Under the pieces are notes generated by a model. That model saw nothing but the letters and a program-made list of their open reading frames with translations. It ran no database searches and was not told where the DNA came from. 58,823 nt of DNA from Gammaproteobacteria bacterium (lineage in GTDB: Bacteria; Pseudomonadota; Gammaproteobacteria; SZUA-152). Shown piece by piece: positions 10,916 through 25,630 of this stretch. Numbering within the stretch: the first letter of the stretch is position 1; each line of letters begins with the position of its first letter. A program made the position numbers and the translations under genes. Location: the NCBI GenBank assembly GCA_021648485.1, contig JAKISS010000012.1:1-58823 (forward strand). The letters run 5' to 3'.

Positions 10916-11347
10916 TTAACGTGTGCGCGGGCAAATCTCATCGTCCGAAAAGAAATAGGCAATTTCTTCAGCAGCCGTTTCCGGCGCATCAGAACCATGC
11001 ACCGCATTTTCATCAATGGAATCGGCAAAGTCAGCACGAATAGTTCCTGCATCAGCTTCTTTGGGATTGGTTGCCCCCATCACTTCACGGTTTTTCAAAA
11101 TAGCACCTTCGCCTTCCAGCACCTGCACCATCACCGGGCCGGAAATCATAAACGACACCAGATCGTTAAAAAATGGACGCTCTTTATGCACTGCGTAAAA
11201 TCCCTCGGCCTGTTCGCGGCCCAGGTGCAGCATTTTCGAAGCAATAATTTTCAGCCCGGCTTTTTCAAACCGTGCATAAATATCGCCAATATGATTTTTG
11301 GCAACTGCGTCAGGTTTGACGATGGAAAAGGTTCTTTCTATGGACAT
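10916..11347 (-). CDS. ndk: Nucleoside diphosphate kinase
   Basis: A 143-residue enzyme that transfers the gamma phosphate of ATP to other nucleoside diphosphates. It begins [13 protein letters not shown], the family N-terminus, with the phospho-histidine H117 in the active-site signature NAVHGSD. Length is standard. It is the first gene of the minus-strand string leading to der; a cytochrome-porin gene diverges from it. Confidence 0.97.
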
Positions 11348-11540
11348 GCTTGATTTACTCCACTATTTCTCAAAAATTAAGGCCCCGGACAGAGCCGGAG
11401 CGCGCAAGCCGCTGATTATACGCGAAATGCGCACGGAAACCCTACATTCACGCGATGCTGAACAAAAATTAAGTTAATTTAAACCTAAACCAGGGTTTCT
11501 CGACTACTCTCCGGATACCACTATTTACAGGGAGATAATA

Positions 11541-12815
11541 ATGAATATCGATTACCGCTTTTTCCTCAAAGGAATCACCCAGGGGTTAAGCTTGTTAGCA
11601 TTGGGTATACTGGCCGTACAAACCGCTCAGGCCAACCCCGCCTTCGCCCGTCAATACAGCATGAGCTGCATTGCCTGTCACTCAGCCTTTCCGAAACTCA
11701 ACAGCTTTGGCGAACAATTTCTGGCAGACAACATCCGCCTGCCCAACTGGCGCGAGCAAATCGGCATAGATACCGGCGATGAACGATTGGTACTACCCAA
11801 ATTCCCACAATTGGCGTTTCGCGCCCAGGCCTACGTGCAAGTCCGCGAATCTGAAGCACAAGACTCCAGCGGAGCCACTACTGCCGACCCTGCCTCCGAT
11901 TTTCAAGCACCGTACCTTATCAAACTACTGGCAGGCTCACCTTTATCGGAGCACATCAGCTACTATTTCTACGCAATCTTCGCCGAAAAAGGGGGTAATG
12001 GCGAAACTATTGTAGAAGATGCCTGGATTACCCATGACAATTTATTCGGTAGTGGCATAGGTATGATGCTGGGACAGTTCCAAGTCTCCGACCTGATGTT
12101 CCCGCGTGAAATACGGCTCACCGTGCAGGATTACATCCCCTACCGCATGGCAGGCATCACCTACGAACGTGGCATCAGCTTTGACACCGATGTCGGCCCC
12201 TTGTCACTGGCACTGGGTATCGTCAACGGCAATGGCATCGAAGCCAATGCCAAAATCAACAGCCCCGGATTTGGTCGCCCGGATCGAGCCTTCGACAATG
12301 ACAGCGCAAAAAGTGTGTTTGGCCGCATTGGCGGCGATCTGGGCCCGGTGAGCATGGGCCTGTTTGGCCTTGACGGTGAGCAACGGGACGTAACCGATAC
12401 ACGCGACACCAACAAACAAATTCTCGGTGTGGATTTTTCCGGCAATCACAACGAGCAGATTTTCTGGTTTGTACAACTGCTGCAAAACCGCTGGGATGAT
12501 TTTCTGGTACAGGGACAAACCGCAGAATGGAACGGCGGTTTCGCAGGCGTAGACTACATTCATAACGACCGCTGGGCCTACTCCCTGTTATACAGCTATG
12601 CTGATGCCAACGACTTGGCCAATAGTGGCACCGTTTACGAAGGCATTGACCTCAATACCTTTACTGCCACCGCATCGTACTATTTCATGCGCAATGTCAA
12701 AGGTGTAATCGAAGTTAATATAGATCTGCAAGACAAAGACAATAACCCCAACGACGGTATCGGCCACGACACCAAAGAGGGATATTTCTTACTGGGGTTT
12801 GATACGGCATTTTGA
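11541..12815 (+). CDS. Monohaem cytochrome c fused to an outer-membrane beta-barrel (Cyc2-like)
   Basis: A 424-residue protein. The signal peptide probably ends at AQA (residue 31). Immediately after comes NPAFARQYSMSCIACHSAFP, a single CxxCH haem site (C43, C46, H47), then PKLNSFGEQF. Residues from about 75 on show alternating hydrophobic/polar strands with aromatic edges, for example FRAQAYVQV, ISYYFYAIF, AYSLLYSYAD and TATASYYFM, and the chain ends in phenylalanine (GYFLLGFDTAF), the usual C-terminal signal for BamA insertion. This is the layout of Cyc2, the porin-cytochrome fusion of iron oxidisers, in which the haem sits in or by the barrel. Assignment to Cyc2 proper is an inference from layout and the FAR-CxxCH-LN-FG pattern; other cytochrome-barrel proteins share it. 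The RBS GGGAGA is well placed. Confidence 0.75.
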   Translation: MNIDYRFFLKGITQGLSLLALGILAVQTAQANPAFARQYSMSCIACHSAFPKLNSFGEQFLADNIRLPNWREQIGIDTGDERLVLPKFPQLAFRAQAYVQVRESEAQDSSGATTADPASDFQAPYLIKLLAGSPLSEHISYYFYAIFAEKGGNGETIVEDAWITHDNLFGSGIGMMLGQFQVSDLMFPREIRLTVQDYIPYRMAGITYERGISFDTDVGPLSLALGIVNGNGIEANAKINSPGFGRPDRAFDNDSAKSVFGRIGGDLGPVSMGLFGLDGEQRDVTDTRDTNKQILGVDFSGNHNEQIFWFVQLLQNRWDDFLVQGQTAEWNGGFAGVDYIHNDRWAYSLLYSYADANDLANSGTVYEGIDLNTFTATASYYFMRNVKGVIEVNIDLQDKDNNPNDGIGHDTKEGYFLLGFDTAF

Positions 12816-13053
12816 AAACGGGCTGAAATTCCCCCGTGATTCCAGGTGTTAGAATGACAGGGGTGGTTTTGTCTGCTCAGAAAGGGGGAATTGACCACCG
12901 TGCGCTGTATGAAACCACCAAAGTTAAACGGTGAAAACCTTTTCCTCTGGGAGCAACAACCCAACTAGAGACCACCGAAACAGCCTAGCAATAAGGCATA
13001 ATCAACAAAAAAATGTTGTAAATAGCTTAATGCCAAGTATTATAAACAGTATT

Positions 13054-14247
13054 ATGCTCCATTATTTCAAATTCAAAAACTTTTTTTCCATTGCGGAAGA
13101 GGCTGAAGTCTCATTCCGTGTTGGCCAGAAAACCCCCCAAACAGATTTAATCTGTTCGGGCGCTGAGGGCGCACACCTGTCCAAACTCATAGCTATCATT
13201 GGCGCAAACGGCTCAGGTAAAACCAATGTGCTAAAGCCTTTGGCCTTTTTGCGCTGGTTTATCTGTGACTCATTTAGCAGCAAAAAACCTGACGATGACA
13301 TTCCCGTTGAGCCTCATTTTTTCCTGGATGAAAACAACAGCGAATTTGAAATGGTTTTTGAAATTGAAGGCCAACTATATCGGTACAACCTGATAGTAAA
13401 CCGGCGCAAAGTAGTCCATGAGGCGCTGTTCCTAAAAACAAGCAAGTTTTTTAGTTACTTGTTTCGTCGGGATTGGGATGAAACAAAAGATAAATATCTC
13501 ATTCGCCAGCAGAAGTTTGGTTTTGCTGTCAAGGAGGCGGAAAAAGTAAGGCCTAACGCCTCTCTGATTTCTACTGCGGCGCAGTACAATGTTTCTTGCG
13601 TTTTGAGCTTGGTTAAGTTTTTTAATCGCTTCCACAGCAATGTTGATTATGGCGGCAGAGATCATTTTGAAGTGGAAGACCTGCTGAAGGCAACCGAATT
13701 TTTCCATGAATGGCCGGACATCAAACAACGAATGGCAAACATTATGTGTCGTTTGGATCTAGGCTTGTCTGACGTGGCCATCGAAAAACACGAAATTACC
13801 GATAAAACAGGTGATACCAGAGAGCTACCCATTCCTTATGGCATACATCGCAAAGCTGACAAAGAGGTGAGACTTCCTCTCTGGCAGGAATCAAACGGCA
13901 CACAACGGGCATATGTGCTACTGCTGAAGATGTTGCCAGCACTTGCGGACGGAGGTGTCGTGATTATTGATGAAATGGAAGCAGACATGCATCCAGAAAT
14001 GCTCACAACACTGCTGGAAATGTTTATGGATCCAGATATAAATCCGCATAACGCGCAGATCATCTTTACGTGTCATGTCCATGAAGTATTGAATATTCTG
14101 GATAAAACACAAATTTTACTCGTCGAGAAAAATAAAGACGGCATAAGTGACGTGTGGCGTTTAGATGAAATACAAGGCGTTCGTCGTGACGATAATCTTT
14201 ATGCCAAATACCGTGCTGGTGCCTACGGCGCAGTACCAAATTTTTAG
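13054..14247 (+). CDS. AAA15/AAA21-type ATPase (OLD/RloA-like, candidate defence)
   Basis: A 397-residue SMC/ABC-like ATPase. The N-terminus MLHYFKFKNFFSI is typical of AAA15 proteins. Walker A is GANGSGKT at residues 50-57. Walker B is VVIIDEMEADMHP with D306-E307, followed by the ABC H-loop-like segment IIFTCH. An ABC-signature-like region precedes Walker B (QESNGTQRAYVLLLKMLPALADGG). The frame is open from 12931, but the family-like start is at 13054; a start at 13030 is also possible and no clear RBS distinguishes them. The gene lies 42 bp before a RloB/TOPRIM-like partner, the usual two-gene layout of several abortive-infection systems. The two differ in base use from the GC-richer core genes. 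Confidence 0.75.
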   Translation: MLHYFKFKNFFSIAEEAEVSFRVGQKTPQTDLICSGAEGAHLSKLIAIIGANGSGKTNVLKPLAFLRWFICDSFSSKKPDDDIPVEPHFFLDENNSEFEMVFEIEGQLYRYNLIVNRRKVVHEALFLKTSKFFSYLFRRDWDETKDKYLIRQQKFGFAVKEAEKVRPNASLISTAAQYNVSCVLSLVKFFNRFHSNVDYGGRDHFEVEDLLKATEFFHEWPDIKQRMANIMCRLDLGLSDVAIEKHEITDKTGDTRELPIPYGIHRKADKEVRLPLWQESNGTQRAYVLLLKMLPALADGGVVIIDEMEADMHPEMLTTLLEMFMDPDINPHNAQIIFTCHVHEVLNILDKTQILLVEKNKDGISDVWRLDEIQGVRRDDNLYAKYRAGAYGAVPNF

Positions 14248-14289
14248 CCTCTGCGGCATCAGCATATGAGCCGCAGAGTTTGAAAGCCA

Positions 14290-14772
14290 ATGCTCACTAC
14301 CATATTGCTGGTGGGAGAAGGTAAAACAGAGGTGGCATTTCTCTCGCATTTGAAGTCGCTTTACATTCAGCGGAACTGTGGAATCAAACTGACGATTAAA
14401 AATGCTCGCGGCAAGGGGCCGGAGTACATCGTCGATTTTTCCGTTCGACAGCGTCATAACGCAGCTTATGATCGTGTGGCAGTATTGCTGGATACCGATC
14501 TCGCGTGGCCTGATGCCACCAGAAAAAAAGCCAGGAAAAACAAGCTGACTTTACTGGGCTCAACGCCTTGTATAGAGGGTTTTCTGTTAGACATATTGGC
14601 GCAATATGTACCGCCAGAAACCCCAGCATGTAAGCAGCGCTGTACCGGTGTTATTACCGGGTCACTACTGGAACCGGAAAGTTTTCAAGCGCAATTTACG
14701 CAAGAGTTGCTAGAGGCTCGACGTGATGGCATGGCGATACTTGATGAACTTCTGAAGTGTTTCGAGAAATAG
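14290..14772 (+). CDS. RloB/TOPRIM-like partner of the AAA ATPase
   Basis: A 160-residue protein. The N-terminus TILLVGEGKTEVAFLSHL matches the glutamate motif of TOPRIM-like nucleases (E10), followed by AVLLDTDLAW with the paired aspartates D68 and D70. STPCIEGFLLDIL resembles the S-x-P-C-x-E-x-W-LL motif of RloB. Such proteins (RloB, DUF4276 and DUF4435 groups) are repeatedly found next to AAA15 ATPases, as in the PARIS and Abi-type systems, where the partner acts as the toxic nuclease. Which subgroup applies here cannot be decided by eye. It is probably cotranscribed with the upstream ATPase. Confidence 0.6.
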   Translation: MLTTILLVGEGKTEVAFLSHLKSLYIQRNCGIKLTIKNARGKGPEYIVDFSVRQRHNAAYDRVAVLLDTDLAWPDATRKKARKNKLTLLGSTPCIEGFLLDILAQYVPPETPACKQRCTGVITGSLLEPESFQAQFTQELLEARRDGMAILDELLKCFEK

Positions 14773-15391: not shown

Positions 15392-15670
15392 ATGAAAAAG
15401 ACATTATTTCTGCCAGTGGGTATTGCACTGATAATGGCATTTCCACTGCCTGCGTTTTCTAATGATGTGACCTCAGGAAAAACGAAAGCGCAAGGCTGTG
15501 TGGGTTGTCATAATGCAGCTATTAATAGTCTTGGTGGTAAGGGTGAAGCGTATCTTGTTACGCAAATGAAAGCGATCCGTGCGGGTGAAAGAGCGCATCC
15601 GCCTGTTATGTCTGGTTTAAGTGATAAAGATATCGATGCGATTGCAAATTACCTGAATGGTGTGCAATAA
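15392..15670 (+). CDS. Small periplasmic class I cytochrome c
   Basis: A 92-residue secreted cytochrome. A signal peptide of about 23 residues ends at AFS. The haem site is CVGCH (C36, C39, H40) and the likely distal ligand is M73 in HPPVMSGLSD. The C-terminal helix DKDIDAIANYLNGVQ is typical of cytochromes c553/c5-like carriers. An AGGGGAAAA sequence lies upstream of the ATG. It precedes nqrA by 70 bp on the same strand, so it may be cotranscribed with or near the NQR operon, but NQR itself does not use cytochrome c. Confidence 0.9.
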   Translation: MKKTLFLPVGIALIMAFPLPAFSNDVTSGKTKAQGCVGCHNAAINSLGGKGEAYLVTQMKAIRAGERAHPPVMSGLSDKDIDAIANYLNGVQ

Positions 15671-15740: not shown

Positions 15741-17051
15741 GTGCGAATCGTAATAAAAAAAGGCTTGGATGTTTCTCTTTCGGGAGAACCGGAACAGTCA
15801 ATTTATCCTGCTCAGAATGTTACGGCGGTAGCGTTGTTGGGTGCGGACTTTGTTGGGCTTAAACCCAAAATATTGGTGAGTCCGGGGGCTTGCGTAAGCC
15901 TCGGGCAGCCCCTGTTCCACGATAAACAAGATCCACTTGTTCAATATACGACACCCGGCAGCGGCACAGTTGTCGCCGTTAATCGTGGCGCGCGCCGGGT
16001 TTTACAGTCAGTCGTTATTGCGTTAGATGAAGATGCAGGGTCAGTAAAGCGTTTTCCGACATTCCATGGCGAGGAGCTGATTGGGCTAAGCGAGAGTACG
16101 ATAAGGGAGGTGTTGCTAGCCTCCGGTTTATGGACAGCCTTACGAGCACGGCCCTATAACCGGGTTCCACATTCAAGTTCACAGCCACATGCGCTCTTTG
16201 TTACGGCCATTGACACGCAGCCTCTTGCAGCAAATCCCCAAGTTATTATTGACTGTTACCGTAAGGAATTTCGTTATGGACTTCGTATTCTCGCCCGGTT
16301 AACAACGGGGCCGGTATATCTTTGCACAGGGGTGGATGGGCAAATGAGTGATCTCATGATTGACCATTTGCAACCAGTAGTGTTTTCAGGGCCGCATCCA
16401 GCGGGATTACCGGGTACGCACATTAACCATTTGTTTCCCGTAAGTGCAGAGCGATCCGTATGGCATATTGGCTATCAGGATGTAATCGCCATCGGGAAGT
16501 TGTTTACGAATGGGCAAATTTGGACTGAGCGCGTTGTCGCAGTGGGTGGTGCTTCGGTGACCCGGCCCCGGTTATTGAAAACACGTTTGGGTGCGAGTAT
16601 TGATGATTTGGTACGTGGCGAGATTGCCGGGCATATTCCCAGCCGAATCATTTCCGGTTCGGTGCTTGATGGGCACACTGCCGCAGGGGCTCAGGCATAT
16701 CTTGGGCGTTATCATCAGCAGGTATCAGTGCTCCGCGAAAACGAGAAAAAACGTCGGTTGTTTGGTTGGTTGCGAATGCCGGGTGGGAAGGAATTTTTTA
16801 CGACCGCGTTGCATGGTAGGCCGACAGCAATGGTGCCTGTGGGTGATTTTGAACGTGTAATGCCGCTGGATATTCTGCCAGCACCCCTGCTGCGCGCATT
16901 GCTGGTGAGAGACACGGATATGGCGCAGGCTCTGGGTTGCTTGGGTCTGGCTGAGGAGGATCTGGCTCTGTGCTCGTACGTCTGTCCGGCCAAATATGAT
17001 TATGGCTCAGTGTTACGCATCAATCTTGATCAAATTGAGAGAGAAGGATAA
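15741..17051 (+). CDS. nqrA: Na+-translocating NADH:quinone reductase subunit A
   Basis: A 436-residue peripheral subunit of Na+-NQR, involved in quinone binding. It begins MRIVIKKGLDVSLSGEPEQ, the NqrA N-terminus, and contains GSGTVVAVNRGARRVLQSVVI and TTALHGRPTAMVPVGDFERVMPLDI, which are conserved in the family. CSYVCPAKYDYG near the C-terminus matches the E-x-C-P-x-K/R-like end region. The start is GTG at 15741, with no clear Shine-Dalgarno. The stop overlaps the nqrB start by one base. Confidence 0.95.
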   Translation: MRIVIKKGLDVSLSGEPEQSIYPAQNVTAVALLGADFVGLKPKILVSPGACVSLGQPLFHDKQDPLVQYTTPGSGTVVAVNRGARRVLQSVVIALDEDAGSVKRFPTFHGEELIGLSESTIREVLLASGLWTALRARPYNRVPHSSSQPHALFVTAIDTQPLAANPQVIIDCYRKEFRYGLRILARLTTGPVYLCTGVDGQMSDLMIDHLQPVVFSGPHPAGLPGTHINHLFPVSAERSVWHIGYQDVIAIGKLFTNGQIWTERVVAVGGASVTRPRLLKTRLGASIDDLVRGEIAGHIPSRIISGSVLDGHTAAGAQAYLGRYHQQVSVLRENEKKRRLFGWLRMPGGKEFFTTALHGRPTAMVPVGDFERVMPLDILPAPLLRALLVRDTDMAQALGCLGLAEEDLALCSYVCPAKYDYGSVLRINLDQIEREG

Positions 17052-18283
17052 TGGGGCCGCAGCAGAGGTTTGACAGGTTGAGAGAAAAGTTTACCGCGCG
17101 CGGCGAGCATTCAATCAGTCGCGCGCTATTCACACTCTTTGACCGGTTTATCTATTCAACAACAGCGAGTACCCACACAGGGCCTCACATACGAGATTCG
17201 GCCAATATACAGCGGCTGATGAACTATTTTGTCCTCGCTACCCTGCCGTGCTGGATTATCGGCATGTGGAATCTGGGGCATCAGACTAATCTTGCCATGG
17301 CGCAATTGGAATTGAATGTCGCCAGCGGGTGGCGTGGTTGGTTGCTCGATTACTTGGGTATTGGGTTTGATGCACAAAATATACTGGCGTGTTTTTGGCA
17401 CGGGTTACTTTATTTTTTACCGATCTTTTTCGTCGCACTATTCGTTGCGGCGGTGTGGGAAGCTGTCTTTGCCACTTTACGCCGCAAACCTGTCGATGAA
17501 GGTCTATTGGCCATCGTTTGGTTGTATGTATTACTGCTTCCCGCTACTACACCCCTCTATCAGGTTGTGCTGGGAATAACCTTCGGTTTGGTGGTGGGCA
17601 AGGCGATTTATGGTGGCACGGGGCGTTATCTGGTGAATCCCGCCCTGCTGGCGCTGGCGTTTCATATGTTTGCTTACCCCGCGCTGGTTTTTGGTGAAGG
17701 CGCGTGGGTACCCGTGCCGGGCTATGACCTGCCGACTGCCCTTGAATTGGCTATCAAGCAAGGAGGGGTCGTTGCTCTGGAGTCTGCCAATTATAGTTGG
17801 GAGCAGTTATTTTTTGGTAGTCAACCGGGGCCCATGGGTGTCACTTCTGTTTTCGGTGTGTTGATCGGCGCTTTAATCTTGCTGGTTTTGGGTGTGGCCT
17901 CTTGGCGTATCATGCTGGGTGGCGTGATAGGCATGGTCGCTGCCGTGTTAATCTTCAATGGCCTGGGGTCTGCAGGAAATCCCATTAATGCCATCCCTTG
18001 GTACTGGCATATGGTATTGGGTGGGTTTGTATTTGGTCTTGTTTTTCTTGCCACAGATCCTGTGCCAGCTGCGACAACCAATGTCGGACGCTGGATTTTT
18101 GGTATTACTGTGGGTTTGTTAACCGTGGTGATGCGCGTCACCAATCCCTCGCATTTTGAAGGAGTGGTATTTGCGATTCTGCTTGCCAGCATGTTTGCAC
18201 CACTGATGGACTTTGTGGTGATTGAATTGCACATTCGCAAACGACGCAAGCGTCAACGTCGCCTGGCTGGGAATAGCCGATGA
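17051..18283 (+). CDS. nqrB: Na+-translocating NADH:quinone reductase subunit B
   Basis: A 410-residue membrane subunit of NQR that carries riboflavin and covalent FMN. Hydrophobic helices run from about residue 56 to the end, with family segments ATLPCWIIGMWNLG, LGITFGLVVGKAIYGGTGRY, NPALLALAFHMFAYPA and TDPVPAATTNVGRWIFG. The covalent-flavin site normally reads D-G-x-S-G-A-T-A-L; here the aligned stretch is PGYDLPTAL (residues 223-231), so Thr229 stays but the SGA context does not. The gene overlaps nqrA by one base and nqrC by four. Confidence 0.94.
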   Translation: MGPQQRFDRLREKFTARGEHSISRALFTLFDRFIYSTTASTHTGPHIRDSANIQRLMNYFVLATLPCWIIGMWNLGHQTNLAMAQLELNVASGWRGWLLDYLGIGFDAQNILACFWHGLLYFLPIFFVALFVAAVWEAVFATLRRKPVDEGLLAIVWLYVLLLPATTPLYQVVLGITFGLVVGKAIYGGTGRYLVNPALLALAFHMFAYPALVFGEGAWVPVPGYDLPTALELAIKQGGVVALESANYSWEQLFFGSQPGPMGVTSVFGVLIGALILLVLGVASWRIMLGGVIGMVAAVLIFNGLGSAGNPINAIPWYWHMVLGGFVFGLVFLATDPVPAATTNVGRWIFGITVGLLTVVMRVTNPSHFEGVVFAILLASMFAPLMDFVVIELHIRKRRKRQRRLAGNSR

Positions 18284-19083
18284 GCAATGATAGTCCTCTA
18301 AAAGCGATTCTTGTGGTATTCATCGTCGCCCTGGTCTGTTCAATCATGGTTTCGGTTGCAGCAGTCAGTCTTAGACCGTATCAGCTCGCGCATCAGATTT
18401 TTAACCGGGCTGAGCATATCGTGAAACTCGCAGACCTCATGCCCGCAAATACAGATACGCTATCCAAAAAAGACCTGATGGATATTTTTCTGCAATTGGA
18501 CGCGCGCGTTATTGATATTGATACAGGAAGGTTCGAAAAAAACCTGAACCCGTTGACCTTTGATCAGCGTAAAGCCGCCGCTAGCCTCGGGCATTATGTC
18601 ACCATTCCGGCTGAATACGATGTGGCGCACCTGGGGCGTCGTTCACAGTTCGCTACCATCTATTTGGTATGGGATGGAGAGCAGATCAAACGCATTATTT
18701 TTCCGATACACGGGCAGGGTATGTGGTCAACTATCTATGGTTATATTGCATTGCAAGCGGATCTGAATACGATAGCGGCTGTAACATTTTACGAGCAGGG
18801 CGAGACCCCAGGCCTTGGTACCCAAATCCAGCTTCCCGGCTGGCAATCGAAGTGGCAGGGGCGGCAGCTGTGGGATGGAACAGGTGAATTACGCTTTCGC
18901 ATCGCAACAGAACGTGTGGTACCAGAGTCCATGGCCGCACGTTATGAAGTCGATGGACTTTCCGGTGCGACGGTGACCGCCAGTGGCGTAACCAACCTCA
19001 TGCATTATTGGTTTGGAGAACATGGCTTTCAACCTTTTCTCAGGTACCTGAGTGAGACACCACCCATAAGAGCCAACAACTGA
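18280..19083 (+). CDS. nqrC: Na+-translocating NADH:quinone reductase subunit C
   Basis: A 267-residue subunit with one N-terminal membrane helix (residues 8-30) and a periplasmic domain that carries covalent FMN. The flavinylation motif DGLSGATVT is intact (D225, S228, T231). Conserved segments HGQGMWSTIYGYIAL and YEQGETPGLGTQI are present. The flavin is normally attached by ApbE, which is not encoded in this window. Start ATGA overlaps the nqrB stop. Confidence 0.95.
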   Translation: MSNDSPLKAILVVFIVALVCSIMVSVAAVSLRPYQLAHQIFNRAEHIVKLADLMPANTDTLSKKDLMDIFLQLDARVIDIDTGRFEKNLNPLTFDQRKAAASLGHYVTIPAEYDVAHLGRRSQFATIYLVWDGEQIKRIIFPIHGQGMWSTIYGYIALQADLNTIAAVTFYEQGETPGLGTQIQLPGWQSKWQGRQLWDGTGELRFRIATERVVPESMAARYEVDGLSGATVTASGVTNLMHYWFGEHGFQPFLRYLSETPPIRANN

Positions 19084-19095
19084 AGGCAAAAGACC

Positions 19096-19752
19096 ATGAC
19101 AATGCGTGACGTACTGTTTGACCCATTGGTGAACAAGAATCCCATAACATTCCAGGTGCTGGGAATATGTTCGGCTCTGGCTATTACCAATTCGTTACTA
19201 TCTGCACTCGTCATGGGGCTTTCGGTTACGGCGGTGCTGGCCTTTTCAAATATGTCAATCAGCCTGATTCGCCACCATCTTCCCAGCAGCGTGCGGCTTA
19301 TCGTACAGATTACTATTATCGCCTCAGCCGTTATTATTGTTGACGAACTGCTCAAGGCATTTTTACCGGAAACGGCACGTATTCTTTCTGTTTATGTTGG
19401 ACTGATCGTGACTAACTGTATCGTGCTTGGGCGTGCGGAAACATTCGCTATGCAAAACCCGGTGGGGGTCAGTGTGTTGGATGGCATTGGTAACGGACTG
19501 GGTTTCAGCATGATTTTAATCATTGTTGCGACAATTCGGGAATTGTTTGGCAGTGGTTCGTTAATGGGTGTTTCCATTTTGCCGTTGGTGGCAGATAACG
19601 GATGGTATGTCCCCAATGAAATGCTGCTACTTCCCCCCAGCGCATTCTTTATCATCGGTTTTCTGATCTGGATTATTCGCAGCTGGAAAACGGAACAGAT
19701 CGAACAGATAGATTCTTTACCTATTCCTAACCGCACAACTGAGGCGGAGTAA
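19096..19752 (+). CDS. nqrD: Na+-translocating NADH:quinone reductase subunit D
   Basis: A 218-residue integral membrane subunit with about six helices. It begins [27 protein letters not shown], the NqrD signature, and holds [17 protein letters not shown], the helix whose cysteine helps bind the intramembrane iron site with NqrE. It lies between nqrC and nqrE with short gaps. Confidence 0.95.
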
Positions 19753-19756
19753 AATA

Positions 19757-20365
19757 ATGGACAACCTTCTCGGTATTTTTCTACGATCAATCTTTGTCGA
19801 GAACCTTGCGCTGGCATTTTTTCTTGGTATGTGCACTTTTCTTGCTGTATCCAAACAGATCAAAACCAGCCTGAGTCTGGGAGTAGCCGTTATTGTCGTA
19901 CTGGGCATCAGTGTCCCGATCAACAATCTTCTCTATAACACCTTCTTGCGTGAGGGGGCACTGGGCTGGGTAAACCTGGGTGCTTTTGATTTCAGTTATC
20001 TCAGCCTCATCAGTTTCATCGCGGTTATTGCCGCGATGGTGCAAATTCTTGAAATGATACTGAGTCGATATTTCCCACTGCTTCACAGTAATCTGGGCAT
20101 TTTTTTACCTTTGCTTACGGTGAATTGTGCAATTCTTGGTGCCTCTTTGTTCATGGTGCAACGTGATTATAATTTCGTTGAAAGCAGCGTTTATGGGCTA
20201 GGTGCGGGGGTGGGTTGGGCATTGGCCATTGCCTCCCTGGCTGGTCTGCGTGAGAAAATGAGATATTGCGATGTCCCTTCGGGTTTACAAGGGTTGGGTA
20301 TTACTTTTATTACTGCTGGCCTGATATCGCTGGCCTTTATGGCTATGGCGGGTATTGATCTTTAA
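19757..20365 (+). CDS. nqrE: Na+-translocating NADH:quinone reductase subunit E
   Basis: A 202-residue integral membrane subunit related to NqrD in inverted topology. [30 protein letters not shown] and [20 protein letters not shown] carry the cysteines expected for the intramembrane iron centre. GGCGGAG lies before the ATG. It ends 23 bp before the nqrF start. Confidence 0.95.
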
Positions 20366-23674: not shown

Positions 23675-25630
23675 ATGAAAAATATAATACTAATAGGATT
23701 TATCATTTTTATGAGTGGATGTGTAAGCATTCCCACCATGCCCACCAGCAACAATATTACATGGCTGGAACAAGGCTGGACGGAACAGGAAAGACAAAAA
23801 TTCCACCACACCAGTCAGGGAACCATGACTTTACCGATCCCCTACGAATGGTTTGCAGCACTTGAACAGCCCGGTTTCAAATTATTTGGCACCAAAGGAC
23901 TGATTATTGAAAATGGGTATCTCGCCCGCCTGGGGTTTATTACGGGTGAAGTGACACCTTATAATCAGGCTGGTTTACCTGTTGGCTTTTCTGTTGACTA
24001 TAACGTAACCAATCCAGCCATTTCAAAAACCACCTTTAATGCCATTGGTTTAACTTGCGCAGCCTGTCATACCGGCCAGATGAGAATCAATGACACATCA
24101 GTGCGTTATGACGGCGGACCCGCCATGACCAATCTGACTGAATTCATCAGTGTTCTAGCCGTTGCGTTAATCGAAACCTATGTGGATGAGGCTAAATTTT
24201 CACGCTTTTCCCAGCGCATTCTTGGCGTTACAAACACCAAAAATAATCGCAAAAACCTTAGAAAATCATTGAAACATACACTTAAAAACCAGTTACAGAG
24301 CATTGTCAAGCCGGCGGAATTACAGCTGGCCGGTTTACGTGATAAAGCCCGGAAAGATATTAAAGAACATCCTTTTAGAAACCGTATAAAAATAATCCGA
24401 GACATCATTAAAGATAGAAAAAAATCCACCGCAGAAGGCTTTACCCGGCTGGATGCACTAAACCGGATTGGTAATGCCGTATTTGGTACAGACACAGGTA
24501 ATGTGAAAAATATTGTCAAAACTGATGCGCCCGTTAACTATCCCCATCTCTGGAACACATCGTGGTTCCTCTGGGTTCAGTACGATGCTTCCATTATGGG
24601 CCCGATGATCCGTAATGCAGGTGAGGCACTGGGTGTGGCAGCCTATGTAACACTCGACCAGAACTCCCCTAATAATTTTGACTCATCAGTGAAACTGGAT
24701 AACTTATTCTGGATGGAGTCGTTATTGGGTGGCACTACGCCACCAACAAAAAACAAGAAATTTTATGGCTTGCAGCCTCCTCAATGGCGCGAAGATATTT
24801 TTGGTAAAATAAACCGGGAAAAACATGCTCAGGGTGCCAAACTATATGCCAAACTTTGTCAGGGATGTCATTTACCTCCCATGGACAGCGAAAAATTCTG
24901 GTCTGATACTTATTGGACAAAACCGGATAAAAGAAACCTGAGCTATCTTGACCTTCCCATTATCGATATTAATTACATTGGCACTGACCCACAGGAAGCG
25001 CTGGTATTAATAAAGCGAAAAGTTGATACAACCAATATCGGATTAAACACTCGCGTTTACCTGGAAGATAAAGAATGGTTCACGAAAAACAACCCTGTTT
25101 ATTTCGGCTCAAAAAGTACTGACTGCAAGCCTGTGACTGTCACTGATGAAAAATCTCAATTTTTCTCACTTGCATTGGGAGCCACAGTACAAAGCGTCAA
25201 TAATTACTGGTACAAAACCCACAATACGCCAATACTACAGCAGGAAAAGATGAATGGTTATCGGAAAAACTGTCTGCGAGCACCCTTTGCCTATAAAGCC
25301 AGGCCGTTAAATGGCATATGGGCAACAGCACCTTTTTTGCACAATGGGTCAGTGCCCAATATTTACACTTTATTGTCCCCTGTAAAGGAAAGACCCAAAA
25401 AGTTTTACCTTGGCAGTCTTGATTACGACACTAAAAAAATGGGCTATAAAATGATCAAGGCAAAAGGGTTTTTTGAGCTTGATACCACGATCATTGGTAA
25501 TTCAAATAAAGGGCATGAGTTCTCAAACACACCCGGAAGAGGTGTGATTGGAAGAGGCTTATCAAAAAAAGAGCGTTACCAACTTATTGAATATCTGAAA
25601 GATATTCGGGTTGTGGATAATAACGGATAA
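23675..25630 (+). CDS. Dihaem cytochrome c lipoprotein, RoxA-like family
   Basis: A 651-residue exported protein. The lipobox MSGC puts the lipid on Cys16. Two haem sites are visible: CAACH (C128, C131, H132) and CQGCH (C395, C398, H399). The region PLNGIWATAPFLHNGSVPNIYTLLSPVKERP, close to the second site, is the hallmark of the RoxA/dihaem peroxidase-like family, and VIGRGLSKKERYQLIEYLKDI closes the chain. RoxA itself is a secreted rubber dioxygenase of similar length; most relatives are uncharacterised. Membrane anchoring and lack of substrate genes nearby argue against calling it a rubber oxygenase. A lysine-rich insertion lies at about 185-250. RBS CAGGAAAA precedes the ATG. Confidence 0.75.
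   Translation: MKNIILIGFIIFMSGCVSIPTMPTSNNITWLEQGWTEQERQKFHHTSQGTMTLPIPYEWFAALEQPGFKLFGTKGLIIENGYLARLGFITGEVTPYNQAGLPVGFSVDYNVTNPAISKTTFNAIGLTCAACHTGQMRINDTSVRYDGGPAMTNLTEFISVLAVALIETYVDEAKFSRFSQRILGVTNTKNNRKNLRKSLKHTLKNQLQSIVKPAELQLAGLRDKARKDIKEHPFRNRIKIIRDIIKDRKKSTAEGFTRLDALNRIGNAVFGTDTGNVKNIVKTDAPVNYPHLWNTSWFLWVQYDASIMGPMIRNAGEALGVAAYVTLDQNSPNNFDSSVKLDNLFWMESLLGGTTPPTKNKKFYGLQPPQWREDIFGKINREKHAQGAKLYAKLCQGCHLPPMDSEKFWSDTYWTKPDKRNLSYLDLPIIDINYIGTDPQEALVLIKRKVDTTNIGLNTRVYLEDKEWFTKNNPVYFGSKSTDCKPVTVTDEKSQFFSLALGATVQSVNNYWYKTHNTPILQQEKMNGYRKNCLRAPFAYKARPLNGIWATAPFLHNGSVPNIYTLLSPVKERPKKFYLGSLDYDTKKMGYKMIKAKGFFELDTTIIGNSNKGHEFSNTPGRGVIGRGLSKKERYQLIEYLKDIRVVDNNG

Follow-up and report, generated by a model that had tools for sequence, protein, structure and literature searches.

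A Cyc2-like cytochrome-porin in a clade of its own, a candidate conduit for electrons from dissolved reductants in Gammaproteobacteria

Cyc2, an outer-membrane cytochrome-porin, has been proposed and used as a metagenomic marker gene for iron oxidation. A gene on contig JAKISS010000012.1 (assembly GCA_021648485.1), from a gammaproteobacterium of the lineage SZUA-152, raises the question of what such a marker denotes. A first-pass annotation of the 58,823-nucleotide stretch that we analyzed, here called the window, had seen the layout of Cyc2 in the product of this gene. Is the protein a Cyc2 by layout, by descent, and by function? In architecture, it is almost certainly an outer-membrane monoheme c-type cytochrome fused to a 16-stranded porin. 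Judged from its sequence, it is a Cyc2-like cytochrome-porin by published criteria and, by descent, a member of a distinct, well-supported clade. On balance, we lean toward a protein that would work as Cyc2 does, within its own clade, taking electrons from a dissolved reductant and delivering them to the periplasm, with Fe(II) the likeliest donor. The gene and the parts of its product are as follows.

11541 to 12815, plus strand: Cyc2-like cytochrome-porin gene including the stop codon (open reading frame, codon comparison, relatives)
11541 to 11633, plus strand: likely signal peptide, residues 1-31 (translation, AQA cleavage by eye, model helix 6-22)
11634 to 11792, plus strand: cytochrome (heme) module, residues 32-84 (motif match, profile match; low model confidence)
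11667 to 11681, plus strand: CxxCH heme-binding site CIACH, residues 43-47 (sequence; C43, C46, and H47 invariant across all 70 rows)
11811 to 12812, plus strand: 16-stranded porin barrel, residues 91-424
12084 to 12161, plus strand: loop L3, residues 182-207, joining strand 5 to strand 6 (model, conservation)

The open reading frame (ORF) starts with ATG, encodes 424 residues and ends in Phe; AGGGAGAT lies upstream, its end 4 bases before the ATG. A sigma-70-type promoter was sought at 11300-13000 and not found. Compared with four congeneric orthologues, the gene carries 109, 114, 110, and 124 synonymous and, in the same order, 34, 45, 47, and 58 non-synonymous codon differences, which fall mostly at third codon positions; by this comparison, it is under purifying selection.

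Cyc2-like cytochrome-porins are defined by motifs, length, porin fold, and signal peptide (PMC8406198). A single CxxCH lies 12 residues past the likely AQA cleavage site at residue 31, which was judged by eye rather than with a signal-peptide predictor. The segment ANPAFARQYSMSCIACH (residues 31-47) contains AxPxFAR[Q/K][T/Y] upstream of this CxxCH, and PxL follows just downstream in CIACHSAFPKL, giving the published signature as ANPAFARQY-SMS-CIACH-SAF-PKL. Neither AxPxFAR[QK][TY] followed by CxxCH nor a CxxCH inside the first 80 residues arose in any of 20,000 shuffles of the protein. Among 70 aligned members of the window clade, a set picked by similarity, P33, F35, R37, C43, C46, H47, and L53 are identical in every row. 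At 424 residues, the protein also exceeds the published minimum for Cyc2-like cytochrome-porins of 365.

AlphaFold2, given the 70 aligned sequences, placed 16 long strands across residues 91-423, with a mean predicted local distance difference test score (pLDDT) of 75.3 and a predicted template modeling score of 0.75. The predicted fold is a 16-stranded porin like OmpC, OprP, and OprO, in keeping with the OprO/OprP-like porin of the published definition. The structure prediction that the first-pass annotation had called for thus returned the 16-stranded barrel, and its description of a CxxCH close behind a signal-like N terminus, a strand-rich remainder and a terminal Phe is borne out by the ORF, its translation, and the model. 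Its recognition of a FARQ...CxxCH pattern and of the Cyc2 layout is likewise supported by the N-terminal signature and the porin fold. The most conserved long loop is L3, in which 12 of 26 positions are at least 98% identical; D184, M186, R189, E190, R192, and D197 are conserved at 99-100% and Q196 is invariant. In general porins, the loop at the position that L3 has in the model is the constriction loop, which folds into the pore.

To place the protein by descent, we compared it with two sets of reference Cyc2s. Cluster 1-type references came from the family of a metagenome-assembled genome (MAG) titled Gallionellaceae (L094), in which 42 of 60 genomes matched, L094's own solely through its window-type gene. 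We took these references as cluster 1 because of the Gallionellaceae title and because every cyc2-bearing Gallionellaceae iron oxidizer has a cluster 1 copy (PMC10734462). The cluster 2-type locus L192 is the one reference anchored by operon context: a rusticyanin-like gene (137 bits, below the family cut-off of 146.7) and the cytochrome-porin gene lie 8 kb apart, separated by genes identified by eye as cupredoxin-like and oxidase-subunit-like. Pfam and NCBIfam scans and a PDB sequence search with the window protein returned no match; since the cluster 1-type and rus-type cytochrome-porins likewise match no NCBIfam model, the empty family scans are uninformative. The first-pass annotation had called the protein compact, which these references do not support: 16 Cyc2-type ORFs of the Gallionellaceae family, counted from the first start codon, span 411-494 residues.

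Two further cytochrome-porins are encoded in the same genome, one of 521 residues (clade k, contig C9) and one of about 400 (clade y, contig C50). In a 57-row tree, 17 window-type rows form one clade (support 100/100, stem 1.85 changes per column), and this clade, together with clade k, clade y, and a single unplaced row, is split (100/98) from all cluster 1- and cluster 2-type rows. A 56-row tree, with the two longest rows removed and the protein of genome G102 added, agrees (100/99, stem 1.56; split 100/97) and joins the window clade with clade k (99/92). In neither tree did the window protein group with Gallionellaceae-type (cluster 1) or rus-operon (cluster 2) Cyc2. The cluster 1 side of both trees is Gallionellaceae-type, with no Zetaproteobacteria sequence identified by name; the trees contain neither Leptospirillum Cyt572 nor a Tenderia sequence, and their roots are midpoints only.

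With Cyc2 cluster 1 (Mariprofundus, Gallionellaceae), the window protein shares a single CxxCH, the AxPxFAR[QK][TY] and PxL motifs, a 16-stranded porin (a published model in the case of cluster 1) and a similar length, but it falls in a separate clade and its barrel has no detectable homology. The two also differ after the heme site, where the window protein has RLPNW and many Gallionellaceae-type rows have GYTM or GFTM. Cluster 2 (the Acidithiobacillus type, with its rus operon) is alike in layout and heme module but again without detectable homology in the barrel, and no rus-type operon surrounds the window gene. MtrAB, MtoAB, and PioAB also pair an outer-membrane porin with a cytochrome for electron passage; they consist of a 26-strand porin and a separate decaheme protein (PMC8406198), whereas the window protein has one heme, fused to 16 strands.

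Possibly, the clade has already been counted in print. Cyc2 cluster 3 comprises Leptospirillum Cyt572, Ca. Tenderia electrophaga, and vent Gammaproteobacteria. Tenderia and the Cyc2 homologues of two RuBisCO-bearing gammaproteobacterial MAGs from vents have been placed in this cluster III (PMC9769843), and two loci of the window clade, L098 and L119, bear Dive96 names that resemble those in that paper. The clade may be part of Cyc2 cluster 3, whose function is the most uncertain of the clusters; iron oxidation has been demonstrated for representatives of all three (PMC8406198). Expression of the Tenderia cyc2 homologue was higher at a suboptimal cathode potential (PMC5371394); if the window clade belongs to cluster III, this would lend indirect support to electron uptake by such types. 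No published work singling out the window clade was found in the available literature text; supplementary trees, which perhaps draw the clade within cluster 3, were outside the search.

How might the protein work? Sequence and model support well that it would be exported and inserted into the outer membrane, with the N-terminal heme module periplasmic and the long loops outside. A small dissolved reductant would then enter the pore from outside, passing the near-invariant L3 (D184, M186, R189, E190, R192, Q196, and D197) at the constriction position. One electron would pass to the heme at the periplasmic mouth, and then by way of a soluble periplasmic carrier to the respiratory chain. A heme at the periplasmic mouth of the pore, a dissolved donor, and one-electron transfer to a periplasmic carrier have all been proposed for Cyc2 (PMC8406198). 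Inward transfer of single electrons by the window protein is probable. Fe(II) is the leading candidate for the physiological donor, tentatively so, and by analogy with three literature-tested Cyc2s. The genome encodes RuBisCO, and dsrA is present in most members of the genus; in such an organism, the protein would provide an auxiliary electron input. An MtrB/PioB-type porin had no match in this genome, which is 86% complete.

Several results weigh against this reading, among them those for the barrel. The profile search that the first-pass annotation had proposed, made with cluster 1-type and cluster 2-type sets, came out divided. Whole-protein profile comparison with hhalign aligned the heme module and the part directly following it at 98-99% probability (heme module, 98.6% against cluster 1-type and 99.0% against cluster 2-type). 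With the heme module cut off, at three cut points and two set sizes, the window-type barrel matched cluster 1-type barrels at a probability of 0.3-5.4% and cluster 2-type barrels at 0.3-0.8%, with reversed nulls at 0.0-0.2%. Between cluster 1-type and cluster 2-type barrels, the probability was 96-97% across 284-334 columns, so the method is able to detect such relations. Against clade k, the window-type barrel matched in part, at 37-78% over 86-95 columns, and against clade y at 54-56% over 22 columns; the profile sets were small (9 cluster 2-type, 6 clade k, and 3 clade y sequences). The lack of a detectable match is no proof of separate origin. The G102 protein, a member of clade y, matches window residues 23-393 (25% identity, E 2.6e-7), and its barrel alone scores 12.4 bits with the window-type, 8.2 with the cluster 1-type, 10.5 with the cluster 2-type, and 353 with the clade y profile; the barrels may thus be faintly linked, and may all have a distant shared origin.

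The heme module and the surroundings of the gene add to these points. Besides H47, no Met or His in the heme module, as a candidate distal ligand, is conserved across the 70 rows; M186, M383, and H409 of the barrel, conserved at 99-100%, may or may not reach the heme. The module is also modeled with the lowest confidence (pLDDT under 50 at residues 20-34 and 40-53). No general partner gene for electron transfer emerged among the matches listed for 80 loci of the clade, and some hosts, described below, are heterotrophs. Because of the barrel, the heterotrophic hosts and the uncertainty surrounding cluster 3, Fe(II) is not to be presumed.

Who carries the gene? The window protein matched 57 of 369 sampled genomes of the class, and 14 of the 57, its own included, have a close relative (E at most 6.4e-118, at least 54% identity), which in G143 lies in two pieces. 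Best matches in the other 43 were at E 2.8e-13 or weaker, and all except that in G102 end by query residue 188. A profile scan of genome contigs with 20 aligned members kept 80 of 98 relatives, some of them on short contigs. Their titles include Thiohalophilus, Thiohalobacter, Thioalkalivibrio, Thiobacillus, Wenzhouxiangella, Microbulbifer, Woeseiaceae, Steroidobacteraceae, and many MAGs; Tenderia is absent from the titles of the 80 loci. Named carriers are Thiohalophilus thiocyanatoxydans DSM 16326, Thiohalobacter thiocyanaticus Hrh1, Microbulbifer marinus CGMCC 1.10657, and Wenzhouxiangella sediminis XDB06. Microbulbifer and Wenzhouxiangella are heterotrophs and are not known as iron oxidizers.

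When 14 of these genomes were searched with cluster 1-type Cyc2, a search that may have missed divergent copies, two (L120 and L071) had at least two cytochrome-porin matches each, and in the latter a cluster 1-type gene comes directly after the window-type gene. A plasmid search gave only short, N-terminal matches in two Caballeronia records, and viral contigs searched with the window protein gave none. A short piece with several stops at the start of contig C24 of G007 (L012), 38-42% identical to the N-terminal part of the window protein, is perhaps a decayed copy.

The neighborhood is conserved: ndk and rlmN, named by eye, adjoin the gene not only in the window but also in five congeneric genomes (L006, L033, L034, L035, and L036) and in L007, from another genus of the family. 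In G010 and G011, which belong to the same genus, the copy is just 60-62% identical and ndk and rlmN were not found beside it; the G010 copy lies amid genes that resemble, by eye, those for a NiFe hydrogenase and its hyp maturation (L037, 1336-12748). Downstream in the window come an AbiL-like pair, a 92-residue cytochrome c and, by eye, NQR-type genes. The first-pass annotation had suggested that the cytochrome-porin could feed this small cytochrome c, a link that its neighborhood does not uphold: the AbiL-like pair intervenes, and neither the cytochrome nor NqrA lies near the orthologue in any of four congeneric loci, with 6.4-9.4 kb downstream covered. The AbiLi/AbiLii-like pair (12931-14772, plus strand), an AAA ATPase and a RloB-like protein, is a phage-defense candidate; it is present also in L035 (G006) and absent from L033, L034, and L036. 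The small cytochrome gene (15392-15670, plus strand) is directly upstream of a Na+-translocating NQR-like operon (15741-20365, plus strand; NqrA onward, by eye), and farther along, at 23675-25630 on the plus strand, a 651-residue protein contains a RoxA-like cytochrome c segment (PF21419).

Across the 80 loci, where many ORFs called by length in high-GC sequence are spurious frames, an ORF of about 170-216 residues begins within about 100 bases of the cytochrome-porin stop codon in 16. One of three such ORFs tested matched the PEGA domain, and the proteins encoded in this position (for example, L078, 11283-11828, and L099, 1702-2262) appear secreted, with a C-terminal RRLRQLQVLQELLDEGLIS-like segment. 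A search for this partner in 30 relatives of the window genome, run with no positive control, found none. Other links were few and scattered: a cytochrome b561-type protein at five of the 80 loci, at three of them 143, 237, or 295 bases downstream; a response-regulator-like protein at six, within 4 kb; and a LysR-like regulator at six, the last two by eye.

The paralogues in the same genome have neighborhoods of their own. The clade k gene (L031, 7100-8662, plus strand; FARKFQANCALCH type) has genes for a multicopper oxidase, for CopB, and for a response regulator nearby, and could encode a copper-linked cytochrome-porin; on contig C88 of the congeneric G002, an ORF as long as a multicopper oxidase gene is found about 4 kb from a gene of the same type. 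At L032 (7234-10793, plus strand), a possible sulfur-linked set follows the clade y gene (IPSFAAKYEKNCSYCH): genes for a small cytochrome c, for a flavoprotein of the flavocytochrome c sulfide dehydrogenase type, and for a cytochrome of the NapC/NirT type.

These data bear on what else the protein might do. The same conduit could serve a donor other than iron, which the clade-specific barrel and L3 would select; Cu(I), Mn(II), reduced sulfur species, and reduced organic shuttles are examples. The barrel has no detectable kinship to the cluster 1 and 2 types and averages 63% identity within the window clade over 70 rows and 59% over 17, compared with 39% for the 15-row Gallionellaceae-type set, and the L3 residues are near-invariant. 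Heterotrophs and genera named for sulfur or thiocyanate oxidation are among the hosts, and the neighbors of the paralogues suggest that the fold may serve several donors. No linked gene indicates any one donor for the window clade, however, and representatives of all three published clusters oxidize iron (PMC8406198); a non-iron donor seems rather unlikely. A further alternative is that the Cyc2 heme module occurs fused to two or more porin lineages. The window lineage, perhaps common also to clades k and y, would then have a near-invariant pore loop of its own and use a substrate other than Fe(II), in lithotrophs and heterotrophs alike. Because of the faint links of the G102 barrel, we lowered our estimate for this alternative slightly, and consider it unlikely.

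An improbable alternative is a protective device, which would oxidize or scavenge reduced metal at the cell surface, or sense redox state, in heterotrophs and lithotrophs. The occurrence in Microbulbifer and Wenzhouxiangella, the largely stand-alone gene and the PEGA-type protein that 16 of 80 loci encode directly downstream are consistent with it, but the genus of the window has RuBisCO and, mostly, dsrA alongside, and the PEGA-type partner did not appear in the 30 relatives searched with no positive control. That the protein is a solute porin with a structural or vestigial N-terminal heme and no electron transfer, as the resemblance of the barrel alone to general porins might suggest, is highly improbable, since a vestige would not be expected to keep P33, F35, R37, C43, C46, H47, and L53 identical in all 70 members.

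Thus, a coherent and strongly conserved clade answers to the published description of Cyc2 despite a barrel without detectable kinship to those of the cluster 1 and 2 types. If the barrel does represent a separate lineage with a substrate other than Fe(II), "Cyc2 homologue" would not mean iron oxidizer in these bacteria. Since named strains carry the clade, the question is testable. If the donor is not iron, iron-oxidation assignments that rest on such genes need revision; if it is iron, then iron oxidation extends well beyond the known iron oxidizers.
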